Shown here in pieces: positions 8,873 to 62,982 of a stretch of 64,000 nucleotides of DNA. Position 1 is the first letter of the stretch. The number at the start of each line of letters is the position of its first letter. A program made the position numbers and the translations under genes. The stretch spans positions 538,501 through 602,500 of the forward strand of contig OY101126.1 in the NCBI GenBank assembly GCA_956465555.1. The letters are read 5' to 3'. The notes under the pieces are model-generated. The model was not told the DNA's origin, ran no database searches, and was given only the letters and a program-made list of their open reading frames with translations. Origin of the DNA: Nitzschia sp. pyKryTriq1. Lineage: Eukaryota; Bacillariophyta; Bacillariophyceae; Bacillariales; Bacillariaceae.

Positions 8873-9436
8873 ATGAAGCTTTCATATTTGATTACGGGTG
8901 GTGCGATGATCTGGTCGTCGGCATCAGGTCAGCCGCTCACCTTCTGCGGCCCGGACCCGTGCCTTGTGCCTATCCAAGGTTATTCGTGCGCGGATTTGAT
9001 CCTTAACTTCAAATTCCTTGGCTCCTGTTGCAGACTGGTTGATATTCCTGCTACCGGAGGTTGCCGTGTAGAAGTAGGGGGGCCTGGCCAAGGCAATTGT
9101 GCGTGGGTTCCTTTTTGTGAGCCTTGTGGCCCAGACACGGCAGACTCTGAGTGTGGGCGAGAATTCCGCACCTCTACGTCGGAGGCATGTCCCGATTTGA
9201 CTTACGATGCGCTTGCAATCCAAGCTGCTTGGGAAGCCGATTCACTCCCACCAGTGGAGGGAGGATCAGCGGCGCCCTCGCAGTTTTTCGAAGGCCCCCC
9301 GACTTGTCCTCCCTCAAAAGCGCCTACTGTGGTCCCGCCCACGAACCCTCCGTCCAATTCGGCAGGGTCTTCCGTCGGCCTTCTAGCTCCCCTTGGTGCT
9401 GTTGTCGCTGGAACAGCATATGCTTCTTTGCTCTAG
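8873..9436 (+). CDS. small secreted cysteine-rich protein, possibly GPI-anchored
   Basis: A 187-residue protein. Residues 1-19 form a signal peptide. The mature part has 12 cysteines by my count in the first 150 residues (FCGPDPC, GSCC, FCEPC and others), consistent with a disulfide-bonded extracellular domain. A Pro/Thr/Ser-rich linker (PPSKAPTVVPPTNPP) follows, then small residues and a final hydrophobic run (VGLLAPLGAVVAGTAYASLL) with no charged end. That tail fits a GPI-attachment signal. The protein is probably at the cell surface or in the wall. It lies between two transmembrane genes of the opposite strand. No enzyme motif is visible and I do not recognise the family. Confidence 0.7.
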   Translation: MKLSYLITGGAMIWSSASGQPLTFCGPDPCLVPIQGYSCADLILNFKFLGSCCRLVDIPATGGCRVEVGGPGQGNCAWVPFCEPCGPDTADSECGREFRTSTSEACPDLTYDALAIQAAWEADSLPPVEGGSAAPSQFFEGPPTCPPSKAPTVVPPTNPPSNSAGSSVGLLAPLGAVVAGTAYASLL

Positions 9437-20207: not shown

Positions 20208-22255
20208 ATGACCAGGATGAAAGTAGCGAAGAAGCAATCGGTATCAATTTTATGTTGGCAGGCCGTTTTACCGTTGTGCTTGTTGCTATGCTGTTGTCGC
20301 GGCGATGAAGCCGACAAAAGGCCAAAGTGCGGAGTCTATCTGGCTCCTAGCTCCATTCCAGGGGCGGGCCTTGGAATGTTTGCAGGCGATAAACGCTACG
20401 AGAAAGGCGAACAGGTAACCTTCGGTGATACCGTGATTCCAATTTCAGAATACGATTGGAACAATGAAGGCGGACCTTTCGATGAGGATGGATTCTTGTG
20501 GGACGAGTACACTTGGAATGCACCTGTATTCACGGGAATGGACGAGGAAGGAGAAGACAGCGACCTTATTATGGTTGCATCGCCCGGAGTTGGAGCAGCG
20601 GCAAATTCATATCTCACTTTGGTGAATGTCGAGGACGACCACATCAAGATCGGTAGAGCAGTTGGTGCAGATAGCCCTGGGCTTGGTGCCAATACTATTT
20701 ACTACGGTCGATCATTTTACGCGGAAAAAGAGATCCCTCCCGGCGGTGAAATTTGGGCCAAGTGAGTGCTCGATTGCCTGGTAACATCAGAATGTATCTT
20801 ATCCTCCTCTCACATACATGTCTCACTTTTTCAAATTTGTAGCTACGGCTCAGGCTACTTCAGATCGCGCACAAAGGTTTATGGTAAGTATCTTCTACTC
20901 TCTGCGGCTGATAGATTGGGGTTTGCTTGCTCGTTTGGATTCTCATTGTTCCCATTTCGAAACTAGGATGGTTGCCCTTGCCCAACGACTTCAAGAGAGT
21001 AGATAATCTCCTCAAAAAGTATTTGGCTATGAAAAATCTTGTCATTCAACGTGCCCCGAAGCTAGTAGATGGCTTATGGAAAGACTTCTATGACCTTGTG
21101 AAGAGCTTCGGGCCTATTTGGGTGAGATCCCGTGTCATGAACGGATTTCCTGACGAAGAGGAGCGAATTTCGGCCATCATGCAAGCTGGTGGCTCCGGGC
21201 AAAAAGATTACAACCGTAGCTTACGAGAAGTTTCTTGGCTTGAGGAAAATGGTACGTAGCCGAGATCAAACTGTTGCGTTCCGTTTTTCATGCAATGATG
21301 CTATGTTATGTTCTCACTATGTCTGTTTTGTTAAGGACAATGCATGGACAACATTAAAGAGGGAAATAGTACAAACCCAGATGCGGGTAGAGGTGCCTTT
21401 GCCAATCGCTTTATCCCGAAGGGTGGGCTAGTGGCACCGGCTCCTTTGATCCATATTGGAAACTACAACTCGATGAAAGTCTTCCACCCAAAAGATGGCG
21501 AAGGGCCTGGTAAACTTATACCGGATAGGGATGGACCTTTCTCGTTCCAACTGCTCATGAATTATTGCTTTGGGCATGATCAGTCAACATTGCTGCTTTG
21601 CCCGTACGGACTTCTCACTGCCTTCATCAACCATTCCCACGAACACCCAAATACAAGAATCGTGTGGGCCAAGGAAATGCGTCATCCCGACTGGAAAGAA
21701 AAATCCATTGATGAGTGGGAAGGCGAGAGGCATGCTGGTCTTCAAATCGATTTTGTAGCTCTACGAGATATTGAAGAAGACGAGGAAATATTGATCGACT
21801 ATGGTGCAGTTTGGGAGGCAGCATGGCAAGAGCACGCCAAACGATTCGTTCCACGCAAGAACTACATTCCTGCTTTCGAATTGAACGATATGTTGGATAT
21901 TGAATATCGCACTATCGATGATGTAGACTACGAAGTGGACAATGTCAAGTTGACGTGCGCTGATTGGTACATTGAACAGTTCATCGACCACAAGGGCGGA
22001 GACTGTGAATGCCGTGTCTTGAAAAAGCTAGGCGACGATTCATACCTTGTCCAGCTCTTGAATGTCACTTTTTACGATGTGGATCGCTACATAGAGGTCC
22101 TCCCAGGAGGCATCCTCTGGAATGTTCCATCGGACGCCTTTATCTTTGTTGACCTTCCATACACACGCGACCACTACGATTTTCAATCCTTTCGACATGC
22201 GATGATGATTCCCGATGATATGTTCCCTGACGTATGGAAAAACGACATGAAATAA
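20208..22255 (+). CDS. secretory-pathway SET-domain protein, four exons
   Basis: Exons 20208-20761, 20843-20883, 20967-21251 and 21336-22255 are joined over three GT-AG introns of 81, 83 and 84 bp; each join restores the frame and the match to the 60850-62982 paralogue. The product is 599 residues. The N-terminus is a signal peptide (VLPLCLLLCCCRG). A first SET-like half starts with PGAGLGMFAG and ends with IPPGGEIWANYG but lacks a clear NHS site. The second half is a complete SET domain: RGAFANRFIP, FINHSHEHPN and EEILIDYG. SET domains transfer methyl groups from S-adenosylmethionine to lysines. The signal peptide suggests entry to the ER, unusual for this family. No KDEL is present at the end (KNDMK). 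Confidence 0.85.
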
Positions 22256-23899: not shown

Positions 23900-24196
23900 C
23901 GTCGTCCGTCAATCGAAACTCTACAGGGGTCCTGATAAGATTGTGTCGCTGGAGAATGATGAATCTTGACTCTCTGCGTTCGTAATGTGCAATGGTTAGT
24001 CTATCTTGGCCTGGATGCGATAGTAAGAGTAGAGAGTAGGGAGCACGAGTACAGACAGCAGATACATACAGCACTCGTAGCGCGTACGAGGTACTGTAGA
24101 GTTGATAGAGCGGGTACAGTACCGGTACCAGTACTATGTTGTACAGGGACCCATAACGGTACGGTACCGGTAGAGTACGGTACTGTACTTTATGCT
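23900..24196. promoter_or_regulatory. CSN1 upstream region
   Basis: Upstream of the CSN1 start. A strong GTACCGGTAC-type cluster lies at 24115-24190. The region then runs into a dispersed repeat copy. Confidence 0.4.
24115..24190. repeat. GTACCGGTAC palindrome cluster
   Basis: Dense TACCGGTACC, GGTACGGTACCGG and TACGGTACTGTAC units immediately next to a dispersed repeat copy; the second copy of that repeat (39342-39409) is also bordered by such a cluster. Confidence 0.85.
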
Positions 24197-24413
24197 GCAA
24201 ATACCAGGTTATGAGCCTAGTATCCGGCGTGAAATAGGTTGTGTTTGTAGTAACTTGTCGTAAAACTAGTTTAGTTTGAGATTGTGAGCTTTCTAAAAGT
24301 AAAGGTTTTGAGGTTTTGATCCGAGGTCCATGAGGAGAATGGCGCACGTTTGGAGAATGTTCTTTCTCTTCGACCATCTTTCTCTTCGACCATCGGAGGG
24401 TTTCTCTGAATGC
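24197..24413 (-). repeat. dispersed repeat, copy A (continuous)
   Basis: This 217-bp stretch matches, in reverse orientation, two pieces near 38-39 kb (38342-38475 and 39342-39409), roughly 90% identical by eye. Here the two pieces are contiguous, meeting near 24266; at 38-39 kb they are separated by about 866 bp. Copy A also has a 16-bp tandem duplication (TTTCTCTTCGACCATC). Because the second copy lies next to a copia fossil, both may be remains of one retroelement family. Confidence 0.75.
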
Positions 24414-25800
24414 ACCCGGAGAAGCCAGTTGAGAAGCAAGCAAGTGAAAATCAAGGGGAGCACCTTGCAAGGGAGAGAGATTTGTGAGCCATTTCTCGTG
24501 TTCATTGATGTTGCGGAACGTCGCAGAATCATGACGGGCTTGACGGATCAAAGAGGCGAAAGCAGGCATGATATCGATGTCGACGGGAGATGAGCCGGTC
24601 ATGGTCGGAAAAGGTGCGCGGAAACTGTACCAGAGTACACGTAGAAAATAAAAGAAAGCGAGGAAGCAATAGTTGGTGTAGTAGGACGAGTGTAGGTGCT
24701 CGAACGGGCTTCTTAGACTATTATGGGGCTCGAAAAACACAAGAGAGCGTAAACGGGCTGCATAACCTGTCAAACAACGTAGAGTATAGTCTCAAATACG
24801 TTGTTCTAAAGAAAGTGAGGATCATGGTCGAACCTCTTACGATTACGCTATTCTACTGGTCTGTATGGTCTGTACGTCAGCCGACAGGACCTCCCCCTTG
24901 TGTACCACTCGCTGGCCTCAGCGAAAAAGGCGGAATCGCGCCAATGCGTCCACGAGGTGGTGAACCAGCGCATGCTTTAGGAGGATTCGGCAGGAGTGAG
25001 GTAGTCCTGCCGTCCGAGCCCTTTCTTTTCCAGTGTGGTGGTGGATGTAATCCAAGGTGTTTCCCATCCACACGTCATGCGCTCCAGCAGTCGTTGGTGA
25101 AGTATCCCCCGTATCATTCAAAACCTGGTCAGATTGGAACTAGGAGGCACCACATCTGTGGGGAATGTCTAGTGCGTATGAACACGTACTATGGGGACCT
25201 GTTGCAGGGACTCGAGCCCGAGTGCCCAGCGGGGTGGATCGGTCAGCCGGTGCTGGTGTCTTGACTGCTGAGTTGTTCTCTCTATAGGTCCTCTACTGTA
25301 CCGGTACCGTACGTACGTCGAATTCTGATGAAAGAGGGATCATTAATCAAACGGAATCAATTTCGCGCTCATCAAGCAAAGAATTGCGAATTCCATCGCT
25401 CGGCATGCATGCAAGAAGGGAGGGAGGCGGGGGCGCGTTCTTTATGTATAGAATAATGCAGGAGCATCGCGCCATAGGCAATGGAAGCCAAACTTGAACT
25501 GAGAAGGGGACGAATAGGCACGTTGATCCCAAACTCACCGACTAGACCACTTGAAGTTCGTCTCGTCTCGCTTTTACATTTAACGCCCACAGCACCTGGT
25601 TCGCCGATTTTTCGAGCCCCCCCATTCTCTTTATTTCTCGTGATCATCGCCGGCAGTCAAGTCTACAGTACGAGTACGAAGAGTACCGATATGTGAATAG
25701 CGCCTGACTAAAATTCCGATTTTGTTCTTTCCAAGATACACCTCGGGCGGAAACTAAACAACGACACCATAACATCGAAACAAGAACAAAAAAGAGAAAA
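24414..25800. other. unassigned region, possibly gene remnant
   Basis: On the minus strand, 24600-24414 could be read as a coherent coding start (ending at the repeat), which suggests a gene interrupted by copy A. A plus-strand frame at 24590-25264 is open, with a GC-richer half (24880-25264) ending in several CxxC-like pairs (CGGGCNPRC, CGEC), but I recognise no family and do not call it. A GTACCGGTACC cluster lies near 25297-25318. The last 150 bp lead to the TPR gene. Confidence 0.3.
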
Positions 25801-33234: not shown

Positions 33235-34002
33235 CTATGCAGGCTTTGCAATAAAGTCGCCAACATATCGAAATTGAGTAAGGATACCTGCCACTTGAAA
33301 TAGTCCCCACATGCCCTTGGTCTTCTCTGAGACATCTTTCTTCACGGTAACCGTACCATCGCTCAGACTAATTTCGCCGTTGGTCGACCTATCAATCCGA
33401 GCTTGGAAGTAGCAGCGTTCTTTTCTTTCTGGTAATTTCGGGTCGGACTTGGGAAATTGTACGTCCATGGAAAAGAGTAAGTACTGCTTTTGGTCTTCTT
33501 GGGAATATTCTTCATCCCAACCCCAAATCTTGACAATCTGTAACCGATCATCCGCACTGGATATAAGCTCCGAATATCCGTCGGCCTTGAGTAAGACGGT
33601 TAATTTTCCAGAGTAATTCGGGAGAACAATGCCATTCTTGTCGTCGTCGTCATCATCTTTGGGTTGACTCGAAAATCGGTAGGAAACGGTCCAGGTTGAA
33701 TCCTTCAGATCTGTCACTTTGGTGGATTGTATGGTCGGTACTGGTGGTGATAATTCCTGTTTGGGCTTGTTGCGAACCTCTTCTTCCAGATTCTGGGCTT
33801 CGGTTCTTAATTTCTTGGCCATATCCAGGAGCCGCTGCCTCTCCTCTTCTGGTGAAACAGAAGAAAAAAGGGAGAGGAACTTGCGAGGAGAGGTGCAGGC
33901 GGTGGAAGTGCGAAATATTATTGTCGGAGCAAAGGCATGCACTAAACCAAGGATGCCGAGGCATAATAATAGTTCCAGCGCGAAAGGTCGTGATCGCTTC
34001 AT
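33235..34002 (-). CDS. plastid-targeted protein of unknown function
   Basis: I choose the methionine at 34002 (residue 13 of the longer frame), giving 255 residues. It starts MKRSRPFALELLLCLGILGLVHA then FAPTIIF: a signal peptide followed by the phenylalanine at the cleavage site that marks diatom bipartite plastid presequences (ASAFAP-type, here HAFAP). A coiled helix follows (EEERQRLLDMAKKLRTEAQNLEEEVR), then a beta-rich domain with YSGKLTVLLKADGYSEL, IVKIWGWDEE and GEISLSDGTVTVKKD, ending WGLFQVAGILTQFRYVGDFIAKP. The GILTQFRYVGDF ending resembles other chloroplast proteins of algae, but I cannot name a family. The predicted place is the plastid stroma or thylakoid side. Confidence 0.75.
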   Translation of the reverse strand: MKRSRPFALELLLCLGILGLVHAFAPTIIFRTSTACTSPRKFLSLFSSVSPEEERQRLLDMAKKLRTEAQNLEEEVRNKPKQELSPPVPTIQSTKVTDLKDSTWTVSYRFSSQPKDDDDDDKNGIVLPNYSGKLTVLLKADGYSELISSADDRLQIVKIWGWDEEYSQEDQKQYLLFSMDVQFPKSDPKLPERKERCYFQARIDRSTNGEISLSDGTVTVKKDVSEKTKGMWGLFQVAGILTQFRYVGDFIAKPA

Positions 34003-40210: not shown

Positions 40211-41395
40211 ATGATGCAAACACGATGGTTGCTCGCAACTGTCGCCGTGGTCGCTTCCGTCTTGGTTGCGTTCAATCTGAGAGGTGCCTTGAATTTGCGC
40301 CTATCATCGGATGATCATGTGGCACTTTCTGGCCAGCCACCGTCAACATTACCAAGAGGAGGAGGAGGAGGAGCCAATAGGCTGGTTTCCTCGATGTCCT
40401 CTCCCAGTCAGCAGGGCGAACGAAAACAGCGAAGCATAGTGCTTATTCATGTTGGTAAAACGGGGGGTGAAACAGTGCGACACACCCTCAAGATCACCTG
40501 CGATATGCGAAAAAATCCTGTCCAACAAAAGCTTTGTAAGGACTCCTTTGCGAACAACAAGACCGAGTCGGCACTTTCTCGCCACACAATCGGTACATTG
40601 CACTGCGATCTTCTCCTACCTATCGACAGTTTGGAACGAGCTACGACTCTGTTGTGGACCCTACGAAATCCGCTGGATCGCGTTGTTTCATGGTTCCACT
40701 ATATGAATCCTGCCAACTGCCGGCCTCATGTAGACTATCACTCGACAGCTTGCAATACCAATCGGTCCATTGTCGCCAGTCTTCAAAGGAAGAACAAAAA
40801 GGGGAGCAAATGGCCTGTCAAGTTTTTTGGCTGTTTTCCAACCATTAATCATTTTGGCGACGCACTCGTTGTTCCAGGATCCGATGGTAGCAAAAGCACC
40901 AGCACAAACAACAATAAGAATTGCTCCCAGATTGCGTGGAGAACCATCGCAGGGGAGGCTTCGGCATCTTCGGGTCACGTGTATTTCAACTACAAGCATT
41001 ATTGGAGGGAGACCATGGAGAAATACAAGAACAAAGAAGTATGGGTTCTGCGAACAGAGCATCTCTGGGAGGACATGATACAAGTCGAACGACTTCTTCT
41101 CTCGAATAGTAATAGGACAGTCTCGCACCAATTGTCCCAAAAACACAATGTCACGCACGGAAGTGAAGGACATGTTCAGCGTGACCAGCTGTCGACTGGT
41201 GGGTTAAGACGATTGTGCTGCGCTCTTAGGGATGAGATTGCTATTTATGGTGATCTTCTTCGAATGTCTACCAACCTGGACAGTCAAGAACGAAATCGTT
41301 CACTCAACTATCTCACAGAGCAATGTGGAAACGCATTGGCAGCTCCTAGCGGCACTAGAAACTCGAGCGATGCCAACTGCCAACGATCCCCTTAG
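40211..41395 (+). CDS. sulfotransferase-like type II membrane protein
   Basis: A 394-residue intronless protein; methionines at 40211 and 40214 are both possible starts. A membrane anchor (LLATVAVVASVLVAF) is followed by a Ser/Gly-rich stem. The catalytic part has VLIHVGKTGGETVRHTL, the 5'-phosphosulfate-binding loop of PAPS-dependent sulfotransferases, and LLWTLRNPLDRVVSWFHY, the 3'-phosphate-binding RNPxxRxxS block. Cysteine pairs and NxS/T sites fit Golgi luminal placement. It should add sulfate from PAPS to a carbohydrate. It is the first of three sulfotransferase-like genes in about 4.5 kb. Confidence 0.8.
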   Translation: MMQTRWLLATVAVVASVLVAFNLRGALNLRLSSDDHVALSGQPPSTLPRGGGGGANRLVSSMSSPSQQGERKQRSIVLIHVGKTGGETVRHTLKITCDMRKNPVQQKLCKDSFANNKTESALSRHTIGTLHCDLLLPIDSLERATTLLWTLRNPLDRVVSWFHYMNPANCRPHVDYHSTACNTNRSIVASLQRKNKKGSKWPVKFFGCFPTINHFGDALVVPGSDGSKSTSTNNNKNCSQIAWRTIAGEASASSGHVYFNYKHYWRETMEKYKNKEVWVLRTEHLWEDMIQVERLLLSNSNRTVSHQLSQKHNVTHGSEGHVQRDQLSTGGLRRLCCALRDEIAIYGDLLRMSTNLDSQERNRSLNYLTEQCGNALAAPSGTRNSSDANCQRSP

Positions 41396-41507
41396 ACGAA
41401 TATGGCCGCGTCTCGTAGACTACTACGTTAATAGAGTTGTAACCTAAAAATGTTACTATAGGTCCGACGTCTCATGACTCATCATATGTACAGATTCTAG
41501 TCTACTT

Positions 41508-42938
41508 TTATGATCGACTTCCATCCGATCGCTGGGCCGTCCTTTCACGTTGTGCCCGTGCCAAAGCCGCCCGCTTGTCTTGCAGCTGTTGCATTGCATC
41601 ACGGTACCGTTCCATATTCCGAATCGATTCCTTCCTGGTAATGTCAAGCTCCTCCAACGGTTGTTGTTGTTGTTGTTTGTGCATATCTCCATTCTGCATG
41701 CTGCGCGTGCGGTCCGCAATCTCTTGTCGATTGGGGCGAGCATGAGCTCCAGTTTGCTGACTCGTACGTGGTTGACCACGACGATTCGTCGTTCCTCGGG
41801 GACGTTGGTCCAATCGATTGGGGGGTCGAAAGTTATTGGCAAGAAATATCTTCTGTTTGGGTGGTGGGGCGTCCTCTTTCATGAGTTCCAATTCCACGTA
41901 GGGATGTGGCTTGCCAGGTAAGGACAGATATTTCGTGTTTCCGTTGCGGAAACTAGGAAAGAAGTTTGACTTGATGCCCAACTGAGCATAAAGTTGTTGC
42001 AGGTAAGGTTTCTGAATTGTTAACATGGTCTCGTAGGAAACAATGATCGGTTTTAAACCCTTTTCCACCGTCTCCACCATGATCGCTCGGCCTTGTTCGT
42101 ACTGCTGATAGGCAGCCTGGTTATTCGGAACATGCCCTCCCTTTTTCTTGACAATACCTTGCAAATGCAGCATGGGGTCTCGGACCACCATGATTGGGTA
42201 TACCCGCACGCCTCGTTCTCTGTACCACTGAATATTGGTCGTCATATTCACAAAGAAACGATGCGGTCTCGTCATGACTTTGTCTCCCATGATTTCCTCG
42301 CAGGCTTTGCTTGGCGGTGGCTTCAACGAAGGAGGGTTTCTCCCTGGCGTGGGTTTCATCTGACACTGTTTGGGATACATGACGGGGACCATGGGCAGAG
42401 GGACTGAAAATTGTGTTTCAAAGCCATACTTCCCCCTGCCAACCCAGCCCCAGGGAAGCGAAATATGATGCACATGATCTTGGTTGCCCTTGGTTTCCAT
42501 GAAATCGCCCTTCTTTTCGGGATCAATCCCCAGTGCTTGAGCAATCGTTCGAGCAGTAAAGGTAGTTCCACTTGATTCTAATCCATAAATGAGAAACAGT
42601 CGCCGCGGAAGTACAGCGCTGACGGGCTCGAGTGGATAGCCGTGTTCCCTCTGCGCCTCCCAGCCAACGTCGACGACGGCGGTGCGGTTGGGGGGCGTGA
42701 TTTGCCCCGCCGAGAACCACAAGGACGCGTTACTCCATGGTGACGATGCCAATGATGACGACGACGACGACATCAGGGATGTCGTCAAGAATTCATGAAT
42801 GCCAAAGTCTGCCAGTTTGACAAGTTCTTGATAGTCCTTGAGACAAGTCGGAGGAAACAAGCTGGCAATCGACAGCACAATGACGACGACCAGCGTCACC
42901 GCAGAGGAAGTGGAGGAGGCTCCGCGTGCGGGTGTCAT
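41508..42938 (-). CDS. sulfotransferase-like membrane protein, head-to-head paralogue
   Basis: I prefer the start at 42938 (476 residues) because it puts the membrane anchor (VTLVVVIVLSIASLF) near the N-terminus; the frame is open to 43100, but those residues are probably leader. The catalytic part begins LFLIYGLESSGTTFTARTI, a P-loop like that of sulfotransferases, followed by RFFVNMTTNIQWYRERGV, VVRDPMLHLQG (3'-phosphate block) and IVSYETMLT. The C-terminal 130 residues are Gln/Arg-rich and coiled. The paralogue at 43375 shares these blocks in order and points the other way. A Golgi role in sulfating glycans or proteins is inferred. Confidence 0.7.
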   Translation of the reverse strand: MTPARGASSTSSAVTLVVVIVLSIASLFPPTCLKDYQELVKLADFGIHEFLTTSLMSSSSSSLASSPWSNASLWFSAGQITPPNRTAVVDVGWEAQREHGYPLEPVSAVLPRRLFLIYGLESSGTTFTARTIAQALGIDPEKKGDFMETKGNQDHVHHISLPWGWVGRGKYGFETQFSVPLPMVPVMYPKQCQMKPTPGRNPPSLKPPPSKACEEIMGDKVMTRPHRFFVNMTTNIQWYRERGVRVYPIMVVRDPMLHLQGIVKKKGGHVPNNQAAYQQYEQGRAIMVETVEKGLKPIIVSYETMLTIQKPYLQQLYAQLGIKSNFFPSFRNGNTKYLSLPGKPHPYVELELMKEDAPPPKQKIFLANNFRPPNRLDQRPRGTTNRRGQPRTSQQTGAHARPNRQEIADRTRSMQNGDMHKQQQQQPLEELDITRKESIRNMERYRDAMQQLQDKRAALARAQRERTAQRSDGSRS

Positions 42939-43374
42939 TGTCGGTAAAGTTGTTTGTTGTCTTTCTTCGAGAACTACACTCGTATCCAATTTACCTCTAT
43001 TTGGTCTCTTTTTAACTACTATACGTATATGGATCGTGGCCGTGGTACAATTGAAACGAGAAACGAGAAACGACCGGTTTCTATTTGCATTCGAATACAA
43101 ATACAGTACCGGTAGACGCGTCTTTCAGTCCTCGAAATCTCTGTTGGTCCACTCGGGCACGCGCGATTGCGCTATAAAAGTGTACTAACATTCCAGTATT
43201 TTCCATTTTTGTCATTTTTTTGTTGGCTACGGTACATACGTACTGGGACATACATACCGTACTCGTACTTCATCTCTCGTCTCCGATATCTGCAACAAGC
43301 AACGACTGACCGGTCAAGGTCATTCATTTCACCTCCTATCATCCCTCTGCCTTGCAGTACCACCGCCGAAAAGG
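42939..43374. promoter_or_regulatory. shared upstream region of the paralogue pair
   Basis: Gap of 436 bp between the starts of two paralogues. It contains ATACGTATATGG and GTACC-type units (43100-43115, 43230-43270). A shared bidirectional promoter is plausible. Confidence 0.45.
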
Positions 43375-44442
43375 ATGCCTCGACCAGTAGGCACGTGTCT
43401 CCTTGCTGTTGTTGCCGTGTTGATGCTCTGCAATCTGCATCGCAATGCTACCACCTGCCCGCCCTCCACTTTCACTATTACATCGTCGGAGCCCACGTCG
43501 AAAATAATGACGAACACCAACAATCCTATGACGGGATTTTTTCGAGGATGGAACAACGGTACGACCTTGGACCGCGAAACGCTAGACGATGCGACGAAAA
43601 AAATGCTGCCGGAACGATTGATCGCCGTGTTTGGGTTAGAAAGTAGCGGGGCGAAGTTTGTGCAACAAGTGCTGGCCCAGGCCATCGGTGCCACTCTCAA
43701 ATATGATGAGGGCAATCGGATCACACCCGACTTCAAAACCCAAGTCCAGCACTTTTCTTTACCTTTTGGGCATTTCGAAAACGACGATCCAGACTACGAT
43801 CGTCAGTTCGAGTCGTTATCCATTGTGCCCGTCTTTGTTCCCAAACCCTGCCGACTGCCCAATCAGGATCGATACAAAGGCACCCTCCCACCCGCTCCTC
43901 CAGAGTGCCATCCATTGTACGGGCCCACATTGGTTCCGGATCCAGCGCGGTACTTTATCAATGTTATGACTCATGTTCAATTCTATCAGCAACGAGGCGT
44001 CGATACGACGGCCGTCGTTGTGGTGAGGGATCCTGCCATGCATTTTCGAGGCGTCACTTCTCGCCATTGCAAGGGCAACGAAACAGCTGCCTATGAACAA
44101 TACAAGACGGGAAGAGTGATCTTGCAGCATGCCATGGAACATTTGGATCCTAAGTCCTTGGTCGTGGTATCGTATGAAACGCTCATGACATTGAAACAAG
44201 TCTACTTGAAAGAAATTTACAAGTCCTTGAATATCATCGAGTCGTCGTCTACTCATAATATATTATTCAAGAATGGGAACATTCAATACATTCCTGCGTC
44301 GGTCATCCCTCCAGTGATTGCAGAAAAATTGGAGAGCGATACTGGAGTGCCCTCCCATGTCGTCATCCCCAAGAACTTGTACGAACCAAAATCCCTTGCT
44401 CAAGTCCGGAAGGAACAACAACTTGCCAAGAAGTCGACGTGA
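43375..44442 (+). CDS. sulfotransferase-like protein with altered phosphate loop
   Basis: A 355-residue intronless protein with an N-terminal anchor (TCLLAVVAVLMLC). The blocks match the 41508-42938 gene: LIAVFGLESSGAKFVQQVL, QHFSLPFG, ARYFINVMTHVQFYQQRGV, VVVVRDPAMHFRG and VVVSYETLMTLKQVYL, plus the late LFKNGNIQYI. In the phosphate loop the usual Thr-Thr after SG is replaced by Ala-Lys (SGAKF versus SGTTF in its partner), so PAPS binding may be changed or lost. The Arg-Asp-Pro block is kept. It is therefore either an active enzyme with a different loop or a catalytically weak partner. Confidence 0.7.
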   Translation: MPRPVGTCLLAVVAVLMLCNLHRNATTCPPSTFTITSSEPTSKIMTNTNNPMTGFFRGWNNGTTLDRETLDDATKKMLPERLIAVFGLESSGAKFVQQVLAQAIGATLKYDEGNRITPDFKTQVQHFSLPFGHFENDDPDYDRQFESLSIVPVFVPKPCRLPNQDRYKGTLPPAPPECHPLYGPTLVPDPARYFINVMTHVQFYQQRGVDTTAVVVVRDPAMHFRGVTSRHCKGNETAAYEQYKTGRVILQHAMEHLDPKSLVVVSYETLMTLKQVYLKEIYKSLNIIESSSTHNILFKNGNIQYIPASVIPPVIAEKLESDTGVPSHVVIPKNLYEPKSLAQVRKEQQLAKKST

Positions 44443-45285
44443 AAAGGGAATAGAGAAACATCATATTATACTACTAGTATACTGTACTACGCCATACATC
44501 ATTATTGTACACCACTTTTTGCTCTCTCTCTCTCTAGGTCTACGTGCATAGCGCAAGCGAAAAATGGCAATATTCGAATATTACTGTAGCACAAGACCGA
44601 TGACTGGACTATTCAGAGAAGGTATTGGAAGTGAGTGAGTCGACAGGAACCGAAGAACGAGTCGTCGTATGTGCCAGGAAGGCATCGGAAGTCACAGAAC
44701 AACAAGATGCCGACGACAACTAGTACTAGTACTACCGGTAGCTAGAAAGAAGAAGCAGCAGGTACTACTGTACCGGTAGTAGTACCCTATTCTGCTGGTG
44801 ACGCGACAATGACTCCTCCCTGGATTCAAAGAACAGTATTCGCGCCGATCAAAAGTCAAAATGGGAGGATGCTAAAAGCTTACTGGAGTCTGCTGGGGTA
44901 CAGTACAGGGGTAGACCTACAAGTTGAAAGTACCGGTATTGAAAATAGCACTTCAGTCTGTTCGTCCCTCTCGAGTAGAGCCTGGTCAGTCGCACGGTCC
45001 CTGCGGTCAGTCGACACGTGGAAGAATGGTAATCACCGCGCTCTTATCATTCCGCCGCATTTGCGTTTTGCGTGCTTTTCTTCGTCTGCGAGAAGCGAGA
45101 AGGCGAGAAAATAAAAACGACAATGGCCATCGGTCCGGGTCGCAGGGGCGAAAGCATGAATAATATACCGTTTCTAACAGGGACAGCCAGTCGGTGGGTA
45201 CAACAGAGGCCCGACGGGAGGCACCACCAGGCTTAGGCAGGCTAATAGGCGAGACAACTGCTATGCACTGCTGGTACAAGTTGCC
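44443..45285. other. intergenic region
   Basis: Gap of 843 bp between two plus-strand genes. It contains ACTAGTACTAGTACTACC and TACTGTACCGGTAGTAG repeats at 44715-44795 and at 44890-44940. No supported gene. Confidence 0.4.
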
Positions 45286-46446
45286 ATGAGGCCTCGACGT
45301 TTCGTCCTTGTTCTTCTGCTCGGCCTAAGTTTTGTACTTGGCTTGACGATCGTTGTAATGGAAGTTATGACTGCTGAGACTGCTGCTGCTGGGGGTGACA
45401 TTGTGACTCCTGACACGACACCAAAGGCATCCTTTCCATCGCAGCGAGACTTTCAGCAATCGTTTTCGGCGGAGAGAAGCTCGTCTAGCGCCTCTTTTTT
45501 GGAAGGGAGCTTCCTTTACGCCAACACAACTTATACCTACCGATACTCCACCAAACTATTCTCCAAACAATATCCTATTTTGCGGGTCGGAAACAACGTT
45601 CTACCCGCGGTGATATTTGGAGTATGTGCAAATGGTGCAAAGCCTGTACGTAGACAAGCCATTCGGAAGTCCTGGGGAAAGAATAAACCCGTTTACTTTC
45701 TGGTCGCTGGTAATTGGGAGTCTGTTTCCAAAGAGTTTGGGTCATTTGGGGATTTACTGTTTGTTGATATTCCTGAAGATTATCGGAACGCCTTAACACC
45801 GAAAACCTTTGCCTTCATCCAATTTGCATCTCAGAAAGCGATCCCTGCATTTTCTCAGACGGGAAATCATCGACCCATGGAGTATATGTTCAAGACAGAC
45901 GACGACGTCTACATCAATGCCACGGAGATGAGTCTCGAACTATACGCTCATGGTCGCCCAGACTATTACGGGCTAATGCGAAACGGGACGGCCCCGATTC
46001 GCAACAAGACAGAGGATGGGCTCCTTTCCAAATGGTACATGAGACAAGAAGAGTATCCCCACAATGTCTTTCCACCGTACGCCCACGGAACTGGCTACGC
46101 GCTCTCGAAGCGCTTTGGTGACTGTGCGTCAAAGGCAATGGCGAATATAATCACCATGCCTTGGGAAGATGTAGCTACGGGTATGTTGGCCGAAGCATGT
46201 CGAGTCGATTTAACTCCTTCGGATGAGGATTGGGATCACTTCGCACCCATGGGCTCGCCGGAATCGGAGTGGAAGGAATTTCCCTATCATCGATTCAAAA
46301 ATGGTAGTGTGTTGGTAAAGATTCTGCACAAGGTCAAGCCTTGGTTCTTCGAACCTCTTTCCCGCCAAGCTTCTCTAGTCGAGGCACGAGAGTATGGTGG
46401 TCAAAAACGCAAGGAGAAGCGCCAGCGAGTGGCAGGCGGCGGATGA
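45286..46446 (+). CDS. GT31 beta-1,3-galactosyltransferase-like enzyme
   Basis: A 386-residue type II membrane protein: anchor FVLVLLLGLSFVLGLTIVV, stem, then a GT31 catalytic domain. Hallmarks are VRRQAIRKSWG, YMFKTDDDVYIN (the DxD metal site), PPYAHGTGYALSKRFG and WEDVATGMLAE. GT31 enzymes move galactose or N-acetylglucosamine from UDP-sugars in beta-1,3 linkage, in the Golgi. It follows three sulfotransferase-like genes, which suggests (but does not prove) that this stretch serves sulfated glycans. The exact donor cannot be told from sequence. Confidence 0.85.
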   Translation: MRPRRFVLVLLLGLSFVLGLTIVVMEVMTAETAAAGGDIVTPDTTPKASFPSQRDFQQSFSAERSSSSASFLEGSFLYANTTYTYRYSTKLFSKQYPILRVGNNVLPAVIFGVCANGAKPVRRQAIRKSWGKNKPVYFLVAGNWESVSKEFGSFGDLLFVDIPEDYRNALTPKTFAFIQFASQKAIPAFSQTGNHRPMEYMFKTDDDVYINATEMSLELYAHGRPDYYGLMRNGTAPIRNKTEDGLLSKWYMRQEEYPHNVFPPYAHGTGYALSKRFGDCASKAMANIITMPWEDVATGMLAEACRVDLTPSDEDWDHFAPMGSPESEWKEFPYHRFKNGSVLVKILHKVKPWFFEPLSRQASLVEAREYGGQKRKEKRQRVAGGG

Positions 46447-54196: not shown

Positions 54197-55453
54197 TCAA
54201 GAGGAACGCAATGTTTCATTCCAAGCTGAGATTTGCGACTCGCTGACAATGCCGTTTTTGCCAAGTTCCAGCAAATATTGGGTGTACCAGTAAACCAATC
54301 GATTGGGATTCTTGACGGCATGACGCCAGATTTGAAGGTAACCATTGGGTTCTCCCACCCACGTAATGTTGTCTCGCTGGGGATGCGAATAGACGTAGTT
54401 GCCCGTCGTCATATCTTCATGTGGAAAAAAGAGTTGGGAACGTGGACAATCAGGACCGGTGATGTAGTCGGCCAAATCGATGCTCAGAAAATAAAAGGCA
54501 CCTCCCATGTAGGTGGGCGTTTGTAAGTGCACGCAATGATCGTGTTCGGGGAAGCCGCACATGTATTTATCAAAGGGAGACCCGCCGTACACTAATGGAT
54601 TGTTCGGATAGGGTTGTAGATGATGCCGCTGTACCATATCAAAGAAAGCATAGGGATACAGCAGGGCATCGCTGTCTGTCTTGACAATGTAATCAAAACG
54701 AGGACGTTCTTTCCACACAGTCGAGCCATATTTGAACCACGTCGGTGATTTACCGAACTCTCCATTCTCTTGAATATTGAGATAGGTCACGTCGCGTTCC
54801 GAGTCGCCGTGAATCTGCGAGGGATCGATGGATAAAGGAAAGGATTCATTGAATTCAAGGACTTGTGTGGGCCCTTTTGGATTCGCTCCAATGACAAAGG
54901 TATATATGATTTGACACTGCTCCAACATGGGGTGGCCAGTAGGGGCTTTGAGCCAATCGACTAGGGAACAAATCCGGTAGGGAGCAGTAGCGTCGAAAAA
55001 ATCCTTGTAGAAGGAAAGATAGGTCCGACGAATGTTCTTCCTTCGGCGTTTTTCCAACTTGTGATCATAACTCATGATACCAAACAGAAATCGCACCATC
55101 GATTGTCTGTCGGTGGGTTGATCATTTGCCGCTATCCTATTTTCAGATCTCTGCGGTGCGGAAGCATTGCTGTCGCCCGGTAGTGGATGATTCCACGGAT
55201 GTTTATCGAGTTTCCAAGCGCTTCGTTGGAGCAGCTGCAAGGTTGATGATTCTTTTCCTCGACGATCGGCTACATTCCGATGATGATGGTGATGGTGATG
55301 ATGAGACACCAGGATGACTTGGAATATGGAAATCAGGAAAACCAAACATGCAATACTGATCAACATCCATCGACCTTGTCGAGACGAACGAGGAGTCGTC
55401 GTCGACGAGGGTGCTGCTACTCGAGCTCGAGAACGGCGGGGCAATTTCCGCAT
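54197..55453 (-). CDS. GT31-like glycosyltransferase with luminal histidine run
   Basis: A 418-residue type II membrane protein: basic cytosolic end, anchor MLISIACLVFLISIFQVILVS, then eight histidines directly after the anchor (from an ATC-type repeat at about 55275-55305). The catalytic part has RRRKNIRRTYLSFY, FDYIVKTDSDALLYPYAF (DxD site), YMGGAFYFLSIDLADYI and FFPHEDMTTGNYV, the last two echoing GT31 enzymes. It should work in the Golgi as a sugar transferase. The acceptor is unknown. A histidine run next to the membrane could bind metal ions, which GT enzymes need, but it may simply be a repeat product. Confidence 0.75.
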   Translation of the reverse strand: MRKLPRRSRARVAAPSSTTTPRSSRQGRWMLISIACLVFLISIFQVILVSHHHHHHHHRNVADRRGKESSTLQLLQRSAWKLDKHPWNHPLPGDSNASAPQRSENRIAANDQPTDRQSMVRFLFGIMSYDHKLEKRRRKNIRRTYLSFYKDFFDATAPYRICSLVDWLKAPTGHPMLEQCQIIYTFVIGANPKGPTQVLEFNESFPLSIDPSQIHGDSERDVTYLNIQENGEFGKSPTWFKYGSTVWKERPRFDYIVKTDSDALLYPYAFFDMVQRHHLQPYPNNPLVYGGSPFDKYMCGFPEHDHCVHLQTPTYMGGAFYFLSIDLADYITGPDCPRSQLFFPHEDMTTGNYVYSHPQRDNITWVGEPNGYLQIWRHAVKNPNRLVYWYTQYLLELGKNGIVSESQISAWNETLRSS

Positions 55454-57712: not shown

Positions 57713-59890
57713 CTATTGTGATGGTGATGCAGTTACTGTGGGAGCTGGGCTTGTTGAGGGAGCCGAACTCACCGAGGGTGCACCGGTCGGAGGCCGGCTG
57801 CTAGAAGGTGCTTGGCTTGTTGTCGGCAAACCAGTTGGCCCCAGACTTGGAGGGGAAGAACTCGATGGCGCCTGACTGACAGTAGGGCCATTGGTAGGCG
57901 ACCTCGAGCTAGATGGTGCCGGACTAGAGGTTGGCGTTTGACTAGGACCTTCTGATAAAGAAGACGGCTGCTGTGATGCCGTAGGAGCCTCTGTTCCTTC
58001 AAGTGTACTCGGTGCAGCTGACGGTTCCTCGAAGTCAGTAACATTGGAAGGACTGGCCGATGGTGCATCGGTTTCACCCTCCGGCAACGAAGGACTGGCG
58101 GATGGTTCCTCGAAGTCAGTAAAATTGGTAGGACTGGCCGATGGTGACTCAGTTCCTTCTGCTAGAGAAGGACTGGCCGATGGTGACTCAGTAATAACAA
58201 TAATGGGTGTCGGTGCATCAGTTTCGCCCTCGGGCAACGAAGGACTAGCAGATGGTGCAGCCGTTTCACCATCGGGAAGCGTAGGACTTACGGTCGGTGC
58301 AGGAGTTTCAATATCGCGACTGATGGTTGGTGCAGGACTTTCACCATCGGGACTTACAGTTGGTGCAGCAGTACCATTCCCAGAGGGTGCTGGAGTTGGG
58401 GTATCTGTGAATGGTAATTCAACAACTTCACCACTTGCATCAATATTGGGCAATAGGCCTTTTCTCTTGAGATCCTGAACGACCACGAAAAAGCGGGCTT
58501 CAAATTCGTTTGCTGTGGGAGCACCAAAGCCGTCGGGATACAGAGGGCAGCCGCAACCAGAGTCGACTCGAGAGTGGTCCCATCCTTCGTCGCCATCCCA
58601 ATGGAGCTGTCGGGAATCCATATCATCCTCCACGGGGAGTTCAAGCCCAGAATCAAAGATGGTTTGATTCGCAGAACATCCCTCGCCTCGGCATGTTCCA
58701 TCAACACGGAAGATGTAGATGAAGACCTTTTCCTCTTGAGGATCGGCTTGCATGACAATATCAGTGAGGGTAACGTTTCGGAAAAGGGGGTCGTCGCAAG
58801 TGAGATCTGCGAGTCCATTGTAGGTCCATAGGAAGTTTTCTTGAAGGACGATGCGCTCCTCTTCTGTAACGGCCATAGGATCGCCATAGAACTCCACTGA
58901 CACCAAAGTGGAGAACTCTTCGACTACGACGCTGCAGCTGGCATCGATGGTCTCAGTGACCCTGGCGACAAAGTCCACACTGACTCCACCTCTTCGCGGT
59001 GGGACGTATCCATACTTGAAGTCACGAATGGCACTGTCGTAGACTCTACGGAATTCGTCTTCTGTGGGTGGGCGATACTCTGGATAATCGGAGTTACATT
59101 CGCAGTCGCCCGGGGTGCCTCCGCCTCCACTGCCTTTGCCACCGCCACCGCCACCGCCACCGCCACCGCCTCCTCCACCTTTGCCTTTGCCTTTACCGCT
59201 TTTGTAGGATCCTCCTTTGCCCTTTCCTTTTCCACTTGACGACTTCTTGGAAGACTTGGAGGACTTGCTGGCCTTGCTACTCTTCTTTGAAGATTTCAGG
59301 CCACGTTCCCAACCACCGGCAGTGATGGTGCCGTCCTCTCCAATGATTGCATCTTGGACTTCATCGACGCTATCTTCTGTCTCTTCTGCTCCGTTCTCCA
59401 GATTGCGGACGTAGAAGCCTGGGGGAGAAAAGAGGAATGCTTCATCAGGAACGCATCCTCTGCATCTGGCCTGAACTGTGAATCTGATGCTGAACATATC
59501 ACCACCACGCTTAATGATCTTGCTTCCTTCAGCGTCTCTTTCTACTGTGACATAAAGAATCTCTCGGTAGTATTCATCACAGAGTTCGTGGGAAAGACTG
59601 TTGTACGAGTCCATAAACAACACTTCGAGACCTTTCCAGTCAATCCTTGTCGTATCCTTTGGGTCATCGTCAAACCCATCAAAGTCGACTAGAACTGAAG
59701 ACTCGAACTCGACCATATCTGCGAAGCAAGGGTTTCCCGGTCGAAACGAATAACCATCGTCGCCCTCCTCATAGTAGCCGTCTTCGCCATAATAGTCATC
59801 ATGTAGGGCTCGAGAGGCGGGGTCTGGGTCTGGAACTATCGCGGCCTTGGCCGATAGAAGCGCTGAAAGCGCAAGAGCAAAAACCTTCAT
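57713..59890 (-). CDS. silaffin-like secreted protein, Lys/Ser-rich with duplicated cysteine domain
   Basis: A 725-residue protein without introns. Signal peptide at 1-16. Two related domains (about 55-155 and 300-400) share YNxL, then CD, and CRG(x)C (LCDEYYRE and TCDDPLFRN; ARCRGC and TCRGEGC). Between them lies a Lys/Ser-rich stretch at about 199-240 (SKKSSKASKSSKSSKK, SGKGKGKGGSYKSGKGK) and a glycine run. Several RxL motifs punctuate it: RAL at 27, RNL at 162, RGL at 196 directly before the Lys/Ser-rich part, and RQL near 430. The last 230 residues are Pro/Ser/Thr repeats (SASPSLPEG type). RxL processing and Lys/Ser-rich segments are known from silaffins and other diatom wall proteins. 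Calling it silica-associated is inference. Confidence 0.75.
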   Translation of the reverse strand: MKVFALALSALLSAKAAIVPDPDPASRALHDDYYGEDGYYEEGDDGYSFRPGNPCFADMVEFESSVLVDFDGFDDDPKDTTRIDWKGLEVLFMDSYNSLSHELCDEYYREILYVTVERDAEGSKIIKRGGDMFSIRFTVQARCRGCVPDEAFLFSPPGFYVRNLENGAEETEDSVDEVQDAIIGEDGTITAGGWERGLKSSKKSSKASKSSKSSKKSSSGKGKGKGGSYKSGKGKGKGGGGGGGGGGGGGGKGSGGGGTPGDCECNSDYPEYRPPTEDEFRRVYDSAIRDFKYGYVPPRRGGVSVDFVARVTETIDASCSVVVEEFSTLVSVEFYGDPMAVTEEERIVLQENFLWTYNGLADLTCDDPLFRNVTLTDIVMQADPQEEKVFIYIFRVDGTCRGEGCSANQTIFDSGLELPVEDDMDSRQLHWDGDEGWDHSRVDSGCGCPLYPDGFGAPTANEFEARFFVVVQDLKRKGLLPNIDASGEVVELPFTDTPTPAPSGNGTAAPTVSPDGESPAPTISRDIETPAPTVSPTLPDGETAAPSASPSLPEGETDAPTPIIVITESPSASPSLAEGTESPSASPTNFTDFEEPSASPSLPEGETDAPSASPSNVTDFEEPSAAPSTLEGTEAPTASQQPSSLSEGPSQTPTSSPAPSSSRSPTNGPTVSQAPSSSSPPSLGPTGLPTTSQAPSSSRPPTGAPSVSSAPSTSPAPTVTASPSQ
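57760..58400 (-). repeat. coding Pro/Ser/Thr repeats
   Basis: Degenerate repeats of the type PSASPSLPEGETDA and APSSSRPPT in the C-terminal stalk of the silaffin-like protein; typical of glycosylated wall proteins. Confidence 0.85.
59130..59185 (-). repeat. (CCACCG)n coding for glycine run
   Basis: A hexanucleotide run that encodes the polyglycine part after the Lys/Ser-rich segment. Confidence 0.85.
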
Positions 59891-60045
59891 TGTCGGTAAG
59901 CTCTAATAACTGATTGATTGATTTTTGGTTATGATTAGAAGTTTCGTAACAACGGCTCTTTGTGAACTTCTTGAGGAACGAGAATGGGCTGAGTCGTCTA
60001 CTCACGAAATTTGTCGGGTCCACTTCCCCAAAAAATGAAGCTAAC

Positions 60046-60099
60046 GCTCCTTTCCTCACATTTGGAGAATTGAATATCTTCAGTAATGAGGAAAGGAGC
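60046..60099. promoter_or_regulatory. 13-bp perfect inverted repeat
   Basis: GCTCCTTTCCTCA and its exact complement TGAGGAAAGGAGC flank a 28-base loop, about 160-210 bp upstream of the silaffin-like start. It could be a paired binding site for a dimeric regulator, or a small transposon relic. Confidence 0.6.
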
Positions 60100-60443
60100 A
60101 TGCTGTCTACAAGATAGACCACCTTCGTACGGGATAGTGTCAAGTCCCGAAGGTGCGCCAAAATCAAGACCCAACGCATCGGATTTTCGTGTCGGAAGGA
60201 ATTTTTGGGCGACCCGCCCGGCTTCCGAGAGTAAGTGTGCGCGCAGTGCGCCTCTCCGGATGACTTATGATATTATGCATAGGCTGAGGGAATGGAGGAC
60301 TGAGCAGGAGTCCAAAAAGTCGGATGGATCGAATGAATACCTCGCAATGTACGTACGTTTATATGTACGTACTCTTGGTTGTAAATTTTCTATACGTATG
60401 TACCTATGTGGAAACAAAAGAAATAGACTGTAACATTGATAGG

Positions 60444-60722
60444 TGCCGGTACATGGTGTACATACTGTACCTGTACCAGGTGGGGAGAGGGGGGGGCGCG
60501 CGGAGGGAGGGCGGGGGGCGACACTACGACTACAGTACTTGTACATACCGGTATCGTACGCGAGCTACTTGTACTGTACCAGGTACGGTACTCGTACCGG
60601 TATGCTGATACGCCCAGGTTCCAGGTACCAGGTATCTCCATACTGGTTGCCCATCCCGCTCCCACCATGTCGTTGTACGCCGCAGTACATCATTACCGTA
60701 CCAGTACCGTACCGTACCGTAT
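60444..60722. repeat. GTACCGGTAC palindrome clusters
   Basis: Three patches: GTGCCGGTACATGGTGTAC near 60444, ACATACCGGTATCGTACG to TACTCGTACCGGTATGC at 60543-60605, and TACCGTACCGTACCGTA at 60703-60720, all in the upstream region of the SET gene. Confidence 0.8.
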
Positions 60723-60849
60723 CTATATTCGCCTCCATACTCCATACGAAATAATATCTCATACCGATCATCTGAAAGTCTATCTTCCAATAAAGTACTT
60801 GTACGCAAGAGAGACACGTCCTGCCTTTCCGGCACCTCCTCGTGTTGCA

Positions 60850-62982
60850 ATGCCATTTTCTCTTGCGTCGCCGTGCTGGACCATTTTGGGGACAGTCGTG
60901 GCGGCGACGGTGGTGACATCGTCGGTATCAGGGGAATCATCTTCGTCGTCGTTCTCGTCCTTGTCATTGTCATTGTTCGAAACGGGCTTTGGTATGGCCG
61001 CACCGCCCAAGCCCAAAAAAGTCCCAACATGCGGCATCTATTTGGCGCCCAGTACCATTCCCGGTGCCGGGATGGGCATGTTTGCGGGCCACGCCAGCTT
61101 TGAACCCGGCGACGTCATCTCCGACTCGGATCTGATGATTCCAGTGTTCGAGATCGACTGGCACAACGGGCACAATCACTTTGGCTTTCTGTGGAATGAA
61201 TATGTGTGGTCTCCGTCAATGTTCGTCGGTATGGACCAAGAAATAGAAGATATGGAGAGCATGCATGCTTGTAGTGGAGGATTCGGGGCAGCCGTCAATT
61301 GTCGATTGAATCTGGTAAACGTCGAAGACACCGAAGACACATTCGGACTGAGTATGAGTGGCGTGTCATCGGAATCCCCGGGAGCAGGTGCATTTACTCC
61401 GTACGGTGGACGGCAGTTTCAGGCGACGAAACGTATTCCTCCTGGAATGGAGCTATACGCAAGTTACGGAGAGAGCTACTTCAAAAGTCGCGACGCGTAT
61501 TACATGGTCCCACTGAGACAAAATTACAAAAATGCAGACAAATTTCTGGAAAACTTTCAATCGCTGCGAGAGGCCGTCCCCGCCTTGAGCACATCAAGCC
61601 GTCTCAGCGAAGCGTTGTACGATCTCATTCTCAATGACTTTCCCTACAAATCTCGGAATATCTATGCGCTCCCCACCAACATGTCTCAAATCGATCATAT
61701 CCTGGCGACTGGTGGAACCAGAAACGCCACTTACAATGAGAGTATTCGCGAGCTCGACTGGCTGGAAGAGCATGGACAATGTATGGACAATATCAAAGAT
61801 GGTATCAGTACTTTACCGCATGCGGGTCGTGGGGCCTTTGCCAATCGATTCATTCCCAAGGGGGGACTCGTCGCACCACTCCCGCTCATTCATATCGGCG
61901 ACCGGAATATCCTCACCATGTACGAGGCTGCCGCCGAAAATGACAAGGGAAAGATAGTTCGGAACGTTTCCTTACCATATCACAAGCAATTACTGTTGAA
62001 CTATTGCTTTGGACATGCTGATACTTCCCTATTGCTCTGCCCGTATGGATTGCTGACGGCGTTGATCAATCATTCTCATCAGCGACCCAATGCCAAAATC
62101 ACCTGGTCCGCGTCGCCTATGAGACATCCTGAATGGTTCAACGAAACGTACCATGCATGGCATAAAACTAAACATACAGGTCTCTCCTTTGATGTTGTGG
62201 CCCTACGAGATATTCAAGAAGACGAAGAAATCCTGATTGATTATGGCGTCGAGTGGGAGACCGCCTGGCAAGAACACCTCGCTACATTCGATGTTCCACG
62301 GCGAGGGTACGTCCCGGCCTTTGAGATGAACAAACAAGTGGACCAACCATTGAAGACTATTTATGAAATCGACTATGAACATGACGAAGGTATCTTTACC
62401 TTTTGTCGTAAAACGATTGTAGACATGGCACTTGGAGAAGAGGATGCCCTTTCCGAGGACGAGAACTTTCGGGAGGAAGTACAAGACCCGATGGATGAAG
62501 GCTGCTATCCCTGCCGGATTGTCCATCGGAATCATAATGATAGCTACATTGCTGAATTATTCTACCGAAAAACGAAAGACCACAAGTCGGGAATGTGGGA
62601 GGTCGAAACTGACACGGTTGCATACGCCTTGTTTGATGTCCCAAGGGACACATTTTACTTTCATGATGCCTACTATCGTCGGGATCATCACCAATATTGG
62701 TCCTTTCGACATGATATGCGAATCCCAGATAGCATGCTGCCAGATGCCTGGCGAGATTCCTTGCATCGATCGTTGAACGGCAACATTTCGGGCTCAAGCG
62801 CCGAATGGCTACAAGATGACGATGAGGAAGTCGATGAGGGTTCCGATGATGGCGACGACGCAGAGGAAGAGTACACGCCAACATCACATTATGGGGCCGC
62901 CAAGAACACAAAGAAGCCTCGCAAAAAATCGGAAGGCTCGTCGCCAGAAAGAGCGGCCGGGCGAGACAAAGATGAGCTATAA
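60850..62982 (+). CDS. ER-lumen SET-domain protein with signal peptide and C-terminal KDEL
   Basis: From the methionine at 60850 the protein has 710 residues and no introns; upstream frame is repeat sequence. The N-terminus is a signal peptide (TILGTVVAATVVTSSVSG). A first SET-like half (PGAGMGMFAG to IPPGMELYASYG) lacks a clear NHS site. The second half is complete: AGRGAFANRFIPKGGL, LINHSHQRPN and DEEILIDYG, covering the S-adenosylmethionine loop, the Asn-His site and the catalytic tyrosine. A long acidic then basic tail (about 650-710), absent from the paralogue at 20208, ends in AAGRDKDEL: the ER-retention signal. Together they predict a lysine methyltransferase-like protein held in the ER lumen, where SET enzymes are not normally found. 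Substrate unknown. Confidence 0.88.
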   Translation: MPFSLASPCWTILGTVVAATVVTSSVSGESSSSSFSSLSLSLFETGFGMAAPPKPKKVPTCGIYLAPSTIPGAGMGMFAGHASFEPGDVISDSDLMIPVFEIDWHNGHNHFGFLWNEYVWSPSMFVGMDQEIEDMESMHACSGGFGAAVNCRLNLVNVEDTEDTFGLSMSGVSSESPGAGAFTPYGGRQFQATKRIPPGMELYASYGESYFKSRDAYYMVPLRQNYKNADKFLENFQSLREAVPALSTSSRLSEALYDLILNDFPYKSRNIYALPTNMSQIDHILATGGTRNATYNESIRELDWLEEHGQCMDNIKDGISTLPHAGRGAFANRFIPKGGLVAPLPLIHIGDRNILTMYEAAAENDKGKIVRNVSLPYHKQLLLNYCFGHADTSLLLCPYGLLTALINHSHQRPNAKITWSASPMRHPEWFNETYHAWHKTKHTGLSFDVVALRDIQEDEEILIDYGVEWETAWQEHLATFDVPRRGYVPAFEMNKQVDQPLKTIYEIDYEHDEGIFTFCRKTIVDMALGEEDALSEDENFREEVQDPMDEGCYPCRIVHRNHNDSYIAELFYRKTKDHKSGMWEVETDTVAYALFDVPRDTFYFHDAYYRRDHHQYWSFRHDMRIPDSMLPDAWRDSLHRSLNGNISGSSAEWLQDDDEEVDEGSDDGDDAEEEYTPTSHYGAAKNTKKPRKKSEGSSPERAAGRDKDEL

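Follow-up and report, generated by a model that had tools for sequence, protein, structure and literature searches.

A SET-domain protein with a C-terminal KDEL beside a lysine-clustered, secreted-type protein in Nitzschia sp. pyKryTriq1

Two divergent genes of Nitzschia sp. pyKryTriq1 encode a SET-domain protein ending in KDEL and a secreted-type protein with clustered lysines. The arrangement raises the question of whether the first product methylates the lysines of the second, or whether the SET protein should be judged apart from its neighbor. The whole stretch of DNA that was analysed, 64 kb long, is referred to here as the window, and the pair occupies the following positions:

57713–59890, minus strand: gene for a secreted-type protein of 725 aa (open reading frame, hydrophobic start)
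59891–60849: divergent intergenic region of 959 bp with 27 GTAC tetramers
60850–62982, plus strand: KDEL SET gene, 710 aa (open reading frame, Pfam SET match, KDEL ending)

The divergent pair reported in the preliminary description is real, with the chosen start codons 959 bp apart. The plus-strand reading frame extends beyond its chosen start, with another in-frame ATG upstream at 60667; the start at 60850 was preferred because the hydrophobic segment then sits at the N terminus. GTAC, found 27 times in the intergenic region, occurs 382 times in the 64-kb window compared with 336 expected from trinucleotides, and further clusters (e.g., 12000–12500 and 24000–24500) suggest a wider feature of spacers.

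The minus-strand protein and its likeness to silaffins

The minus-strand protein was divided into the following parts:

N terminus: putative signal peptide, by hydropathy
Residues about 50–160: Cys domain 1
Residues 196–262: Lys/Ser/Gly linker with KXXK and pentalysine clusters
Residues about 313–415: Cys domain 2
Residues about 500–725: Ser/Pro/Thr-rich tail

The Cys domains are two diverged copies (28% identical over 94 columns when aligned with each other, E 4e-5; 29% in a second comparison) joined by the Lys-rich linker, and the tail comes after the second. Lysine makes up 3.6% and serine 12.7% of the protein overall. The 67 residues from 196 to 262, Lys/Ser-rich and then Lys/Gly-rich, hold 16 of the 26 lysines and carry a net charge of +16; the other three segments are acidic (net −29, −28, and −21). 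Within the linker, KSSK occurs at 203–206 and 209–212, two residues apart, and there is a pentalysine cluster, KSSKASKSSKSSK, at 203–215 that contains no adjacent lysines. Four RxL sites are present (27, 162, 196, and 427) compared with a mean of 1.4 in 2000 shuffles (P 0.04); the one at 27–29 comes after the putative signal peptide, and the one at 196–198 abuts the Lys/Ser stretch. Because the lysines are concentrated and the RxL excess is modest, the original wording, "Lys/Ser-rich, RxL-punctuated", applies to this stretch more than to the protein as a whole, which is mostly acidic.

A published screen for silaffin-like proteins asks for a signal peptide and for KXXK motifs (X = S or G) that recur at spacings of 1–6 residues, and its criteria further include a pentalysine cluster and an RXL site (PMC5501833). 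The minus-strand protein has the KXXK, pentalysine, and RXL features, and its signal peptide is judged by hydropathy only. It therefore shares a hydrophobic N terminus, KXXK, a pentalysine cluster, and RXL sites with the silaffin-like/KXXK proteins of Thalassiosira pseudonana. The Pro/Thr/Ser-rich part, recognized by eye, may be compared with the PT repeats described for 14 KXXK-type proteins of that species, TPSIL1 among them, so the Ser/Pro/Thr tail is no argument against silaffin-likeness (PMC5501833). Unlike the T. pseudonana proteins, the minus-strand protein has its lysines packed into the 67-aa linker that joins its Cys domains and is acidic overall, and its association with silica is putative.

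Acidic parts as such do not argue against silaffin-likeness either, because Sil1p combines a strongly basic, highly repetitive Lys-cluster part with an acidic N-terminal domain (PMC4557024). Sil1p was our sole yardstick, and its repetitive basic part contrasts with a basic part of just 67 out of 725 residues here. On this composition (3.6% Lys overall, three of four segments strongly acidic), the reading as a silaffin proper was rejected. The description "like silaffins" thus stands insofar as the protein passes the KXXK screen (PMC5501833), but most of the protein is unlike Sil1p.

Neither Pfam nor NCBIfam gave a match to the minus-strand protein at E up to 1, tblastn against the 64-kb window found no relative, and none turned up in a viral contig collection, to which diatoms do not belong (six unconfirmed pattern matches). 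Eight PDB matches at E up to 0.1 were rejected as low complexity; their best stretches lie within residues 214–296, on the Gly-rich linker or close to it.

The KDEL SET protein and its paralogue

The plus-strand protein was annotated as follows:

Residue ~11: N-terminal hydrophobic segment (putative signal peptide), by hydropathy
Residues about 57–210: possible degenerate SET-like N-terminal domain, from weak PDB matches
Residues about 326–466: catalytic-type SET domain, from Pfam and the motifs INHSxxxPN and EEILIDYG
Residues about 550–638: conserved C-terminal domain, from alignment with the paralogue
C terminus: acidic then basic tail, with KDEL at the end

Both the SET domain and the C-terminal KDEL claimed for this protein were borne out. 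The Pfam match has an E value of 1.2e-12 and a score of 48.6 bits, where 22.4 is the cut-off (the query was one codon short, so its residues 325–465 are 326–466 of the 710-aa protein). Inspection of the sequence shows INHSHQRPN and EEILIDYG; NHSxxPN-type and DY motifs are the catalytic motifs of SET methyltransferases. KDEL forms the final four residues, and the composition product for this exact ending is about 1.7e-5 as a single-gene figure. With the start at 60850, the 13-residue hydropathy mean reaches 1.96 at residue 11. Both proteins of the pair begin with a hydrophobic segment; their signal peptides are putative and come from hydropathy only.

The N-terminal domain, of ~150 residues, may be a degenerate SET-like domain, given a weak likeness. 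SET/PR domains account for three of its five PDB matches at E up to 10, none significant (whole-sequence E 0.19 for PRDM12, 0.39 for PRDM16, and 1.6 for a viral SET enzyme). An SSIPGAGLG-type motif is shared with the PR/SET domains of PRDM12 and PRDM16, and an IPPxxELxxxYG motif with PRDM12, in a likeness that is sub-threshold (best-stretch E 4.3 and 1.7, respectively). In neither paralogue does this domain match Pfam at E up to 1, and by eye it lacks the NHS motif. The SET protein had no sequence match to solved SET structures at E up to 1 (the one match, E 0.48, was to titin), and two structure predictions were too poor to use, with mean pLDDT values of 31 and 35; the SET fold therefore rests on the Pfam sequence profile. 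NCBIfam profiles yielded a single match, at E 0.15 and well under the profile's cut-off. Viral and prokaryotic contig collections, which do not cover diatoms, yielded no relatives of the SET protein or of the alignment with its paralogue; unconfirmed pattern matches numbered 0 (viral) and 3 (prokaryotic) for the protein and 49 and 110 for the alignment.

Plastid targeting of the SET protein was rejected on account of the KDEL and because, by eye, no ASAFAP-type motif, the plastid-targeting mark at a cleavage site, is found at the putative cleavage site. Elsewhere in the window, the protein at 33235–34002 (minus strand) has a hydrophobic N terminus followed by AFAP, resembling the bipartite plastid-targeting signal of diatoms. 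Taken by themselves, that start and the silaffin-like protein would already point to a heterokont alga, likely a diatom.

A second SET gene was found by tblastn of both pair proteins against the 64-kb window, 38.6 kb from the KDEL copy:

20208–22255, plus strand: paralogous SET gene without KDEL, three introns inferred (tblastn, splicing, alignment)
20762–20842, 20884–20966, and 21252–21335, plus strand: its inferred introns, all GT..AG
18701–19618, minus strand: M50B-like peptidase, divergent neighbor of the paralogue (E 1.5e-36; Lys 1.0%)

Once spliced, the paralogue is open throughout and is 45% identical to the KDEL protein over 592 positions (E 3.6e-174). Its SET domain scores 43.4 bits against the Pfam cut-off of 22.4 and keeps INHSHEHPN and EEILIDYG, and the paralogues share about 51% of residues in the catalytic domain. 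The KDEL SET protein thus belongs to a family of at least two members in Nitzschia sp. pyKryTriq1. The paralogue also has a hydrophobic N terminus, but it stops directly behind the C-terminal domain that both proteins have (...VWKNDMK), without a KDEL, whereas the KDEL copy continues for about 70 extra residues (acidic, basic, then KDEL). ER retention is therefore not common to this family. At the three intron places of the paralogue the KDEL copy is uninterrupted, a difference that would fit either a retrocopy origin for the KDEL copy or intron gain in the paralogue.

In the KDEL protein, the catalytic NHS is also an N-glycosylation sequon (N407-H-S, residues 407–409; 62068–62076, plus strand), and both paralogues, which seemingly enter the secretory pathway, have it. 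A glycan at N407 should abolish methyltransferase activity. One reading is then that the SET domain is inactive as an ER methyltransferase, for example because N407 is glycosylated, and has a binding or chaperone-like role instead; the position of the sequon in the active site and an N-terminal SET-like domain that already seems degenerate would both agree with this. The catalytic motifs, however, are kept in both paralogues, in a region where about half of the residues are shared, and we regard loss of activity as quite improbable.

The meaning of the gene pairing

The paralogue provides a control for the arrangement within the window. It is flanked by the divergent M50B-like peptidase and, downstream, by an RPN7/PCI protein, neither of which is a Lys-rich secreted protein. 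Neither the KDEL nor a Lys-rich neighbor recurs in the only other family copy seen (one copy, 64-kb window), and the notion that adjacency implies function was rejected on the strength of this control.

Secretory-type neighbors are also common here. N-terminal hydrophobic segments (13-residue mean of 1.8 or more, a cut-off chosen after the fact) occur in 15 of 29 gene models, and in 12 of 26 without the pair and the paralogue. The 29 models were derived by eye from 36 ATG open reading frames (one start moved to 60850) minus seven overlapping frames or further exons. With 15 of 29 N termini hydrophobic, a secretory or membrane neighbor is roughly a coin toss and unremarkable. If five lysines in a span of 14 residues count as a cluster, even where some are adjacent, seven of the 29 models have at least one; the minus-strand protein has the most (10), and the SET protein has one.

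The pair could still be a functional unit, in which the neighbor's lysine cluster is the substrate of the KDEL SET protein and the shared intergenic region co-regulates both genes. The divergent starts 959 bp apart would suit such a unit, as would a neighbor with a dense Lys/Ser cluster, KXXK, and more pentalysine clusters than any other of the 29 models. However, the paralogue has no such neighbor and hydrophobic N termini are frequent in the window, and we consider a functional unit very improbable. The enzyme–substrate link that the preliminary description drew from the pairing is accordingly not upheld, the paralogue lying between unrelated genes without a KDEL and 15 of the window's 29 models (12 of 26 without the pair and the paralogue) being hydrophobic at the N terminus. 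The gene pairing itself adds little; the combination of SET domain and KDEL is the part of interest.

Substrates of the SET protein and published precedents

As cited in later work, Nemoto et al. 2020 (Mar Biotechnol 22:551) identified seven diatom-specific methyltransferase genes, for which regulation of long-chain polyamines and of proteins that form the wall was proposed (PMC11151724). The SET protein of that study came from a comparison of eight diatom species, and the same source states that salinity inhibits 12 SET-domain genes in Skeletonema subsalsum (PMC11554505). Compared by description only, the published family is like the protein studied here in its SET domain and its suggested action on wall proteins or polyamines (PMC11151724, PMC11554505). 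Since diatom SET methyltransferases were, in these accounts, suggested for wall proteins in 2020, the general hypothesis is already in print. The methyltransferases of the 2020 study are reportedly putative ER-targeted proteins. As for the earlier proposal of a secretory methyltransferase acting on the lysines of silica proteins, it is plausible and in essence published, but the argument from pairing does not carry it. Beyond PMC11151724 and PMC11554505, titles and abstract openings in the open-licence literature gave nothing on diatom secretory SET methyltransferases among the matches listed, and nothing on a SET methyltransferase of the ER lumen that carries KDEL.

Every lysine of silaffin-1A1 is described as di- or trimethylated or polyamine-modified, and the enzymes that modify silaffins might recognize KXXK clusters (PMC4557024). 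The silaffin kinase tpSTK1, which has a signal peptide and is located at ER and Golgi membranes, is a precedent for early-secretory modification; like the enzyme proposed here it acts on silaffins early in the pathway, but it is a kinase and not a methyltransferase (PMC4557024). In that review the term methyltransferase occurs 0 times, and its passages on silaffins name no enzyme that methylates silaffin lysines (PMC4557024). Taken together, the lysine modification of silaffin-1A1, KXXK recognition, and tpSTK1 at the ER/Golgi make Lys-clustered proteins reasonable substrates.

The reading we prefer, tentatively and at a little under even chances, is that the KDEL protein is an ER-retained SET methyltransferase of secretory cargo, with Lys-clustered silaffin-like proteins as a class its likeliest substrates and no special tie to its neighbor. 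The soluble protein would enter the ER via its signal peptide and be retained or retrieved there by the C-terminal KDEL. The second SET domain would be catalytic; the other, at the N terminus, would be SET-like but degenerate. S-adenosylmethionine would supply the methyl groups for amino groups on cargo in transit through the ER, probably KXXK-bearing, Lys-clustered silaffin-like proteins, with the product of the adjoining gene one among many. Open reading frames, the SET match with its motifs, the KDEL, and the paralogue are observed directly; we infer ER entry, activity, substrate class, and the availability of lumenal S-adenosylmethionine. In favor of an ER-retained methyltransferase are the SET match above the Pfam cut-off, the motifs, and the hydrophobic N terminus of both paralogues, together with the KDEL; against it are the KDEL-less paralogue, the sequon at N407, and a fold drawn from the Pfam match. 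Activity in the ER also requires a lumenal supply of S-adenosylmethionine. A chloroplast carrier for this compound has been described, in a source whose relevant parts mention no ER or Golgi one (PMC4158793).

The KDEL may instead mark an ER resident whose substrates are ordinary proteins of the ER or other cargo for secretion, unrelated to silica; the silica role of both genes is only putative. The published SET family, however, is called diatom-specific and tied to wall formation (PMC11151724, PMC11554505), the kinship of the present protein with it being putative, and a silica-unrelated role seems possible, if on the unlikely side.

The substrate might instead be a small molecule of the secretory pathway, such as long-chain polyamines, and not protein lysines. 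SET enzymes are mostly protein lysine methyltransferases, which counts against this, and no sequence feature of the SET protein points there. On the other hand, the SET enzyme BurB is described as methylating free methionine, the long-chain polyamines of diatoms are N-methylated (PMC4557024), and the published diatom SET family has been proposed to take part in the function or methylation of polyamines (PMC11151724, PMC11554505). We judge such a substrate improbable.

A SET protein that bears an ER-retention signal is a concrete candidate for silaffin lysine methylation. It is conceivable, though we think it unlikely, that this protein is the enzyme still missing for lysine methylation of silaffin-type proteins in the ER lumen, modifying KXXK clusters on their arrival there and before phosphorylation, and that the KDEL-less paralogue acts later; a SET-type enzyme would then be methylating proteins within the lumen of the secretory pathway. 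The two paralogues, with and without KDEL in one genome, lend themselves to comparing action early and late in that pathway.

Elsewhere in the 64-kb window, no tRNA (ARAGORN, bacterial code) and no Rfam family at gathering score was found. The gene at 8873–9436 (plus strand) encodes a small Cys-rich protein that looks secreted; it has a Pro/Thr/Ser stretch, a hydrophobic C terminus, and no Pfam match at E up to 1. Golgi-type enzymes, all with N-terminal hydrophobic segments, are encoded at 40211–46446 and 54197–55453; two sulfotransferase matches among them are weak and below cut-off, and two galactosyltransferase-family proteins are above it.
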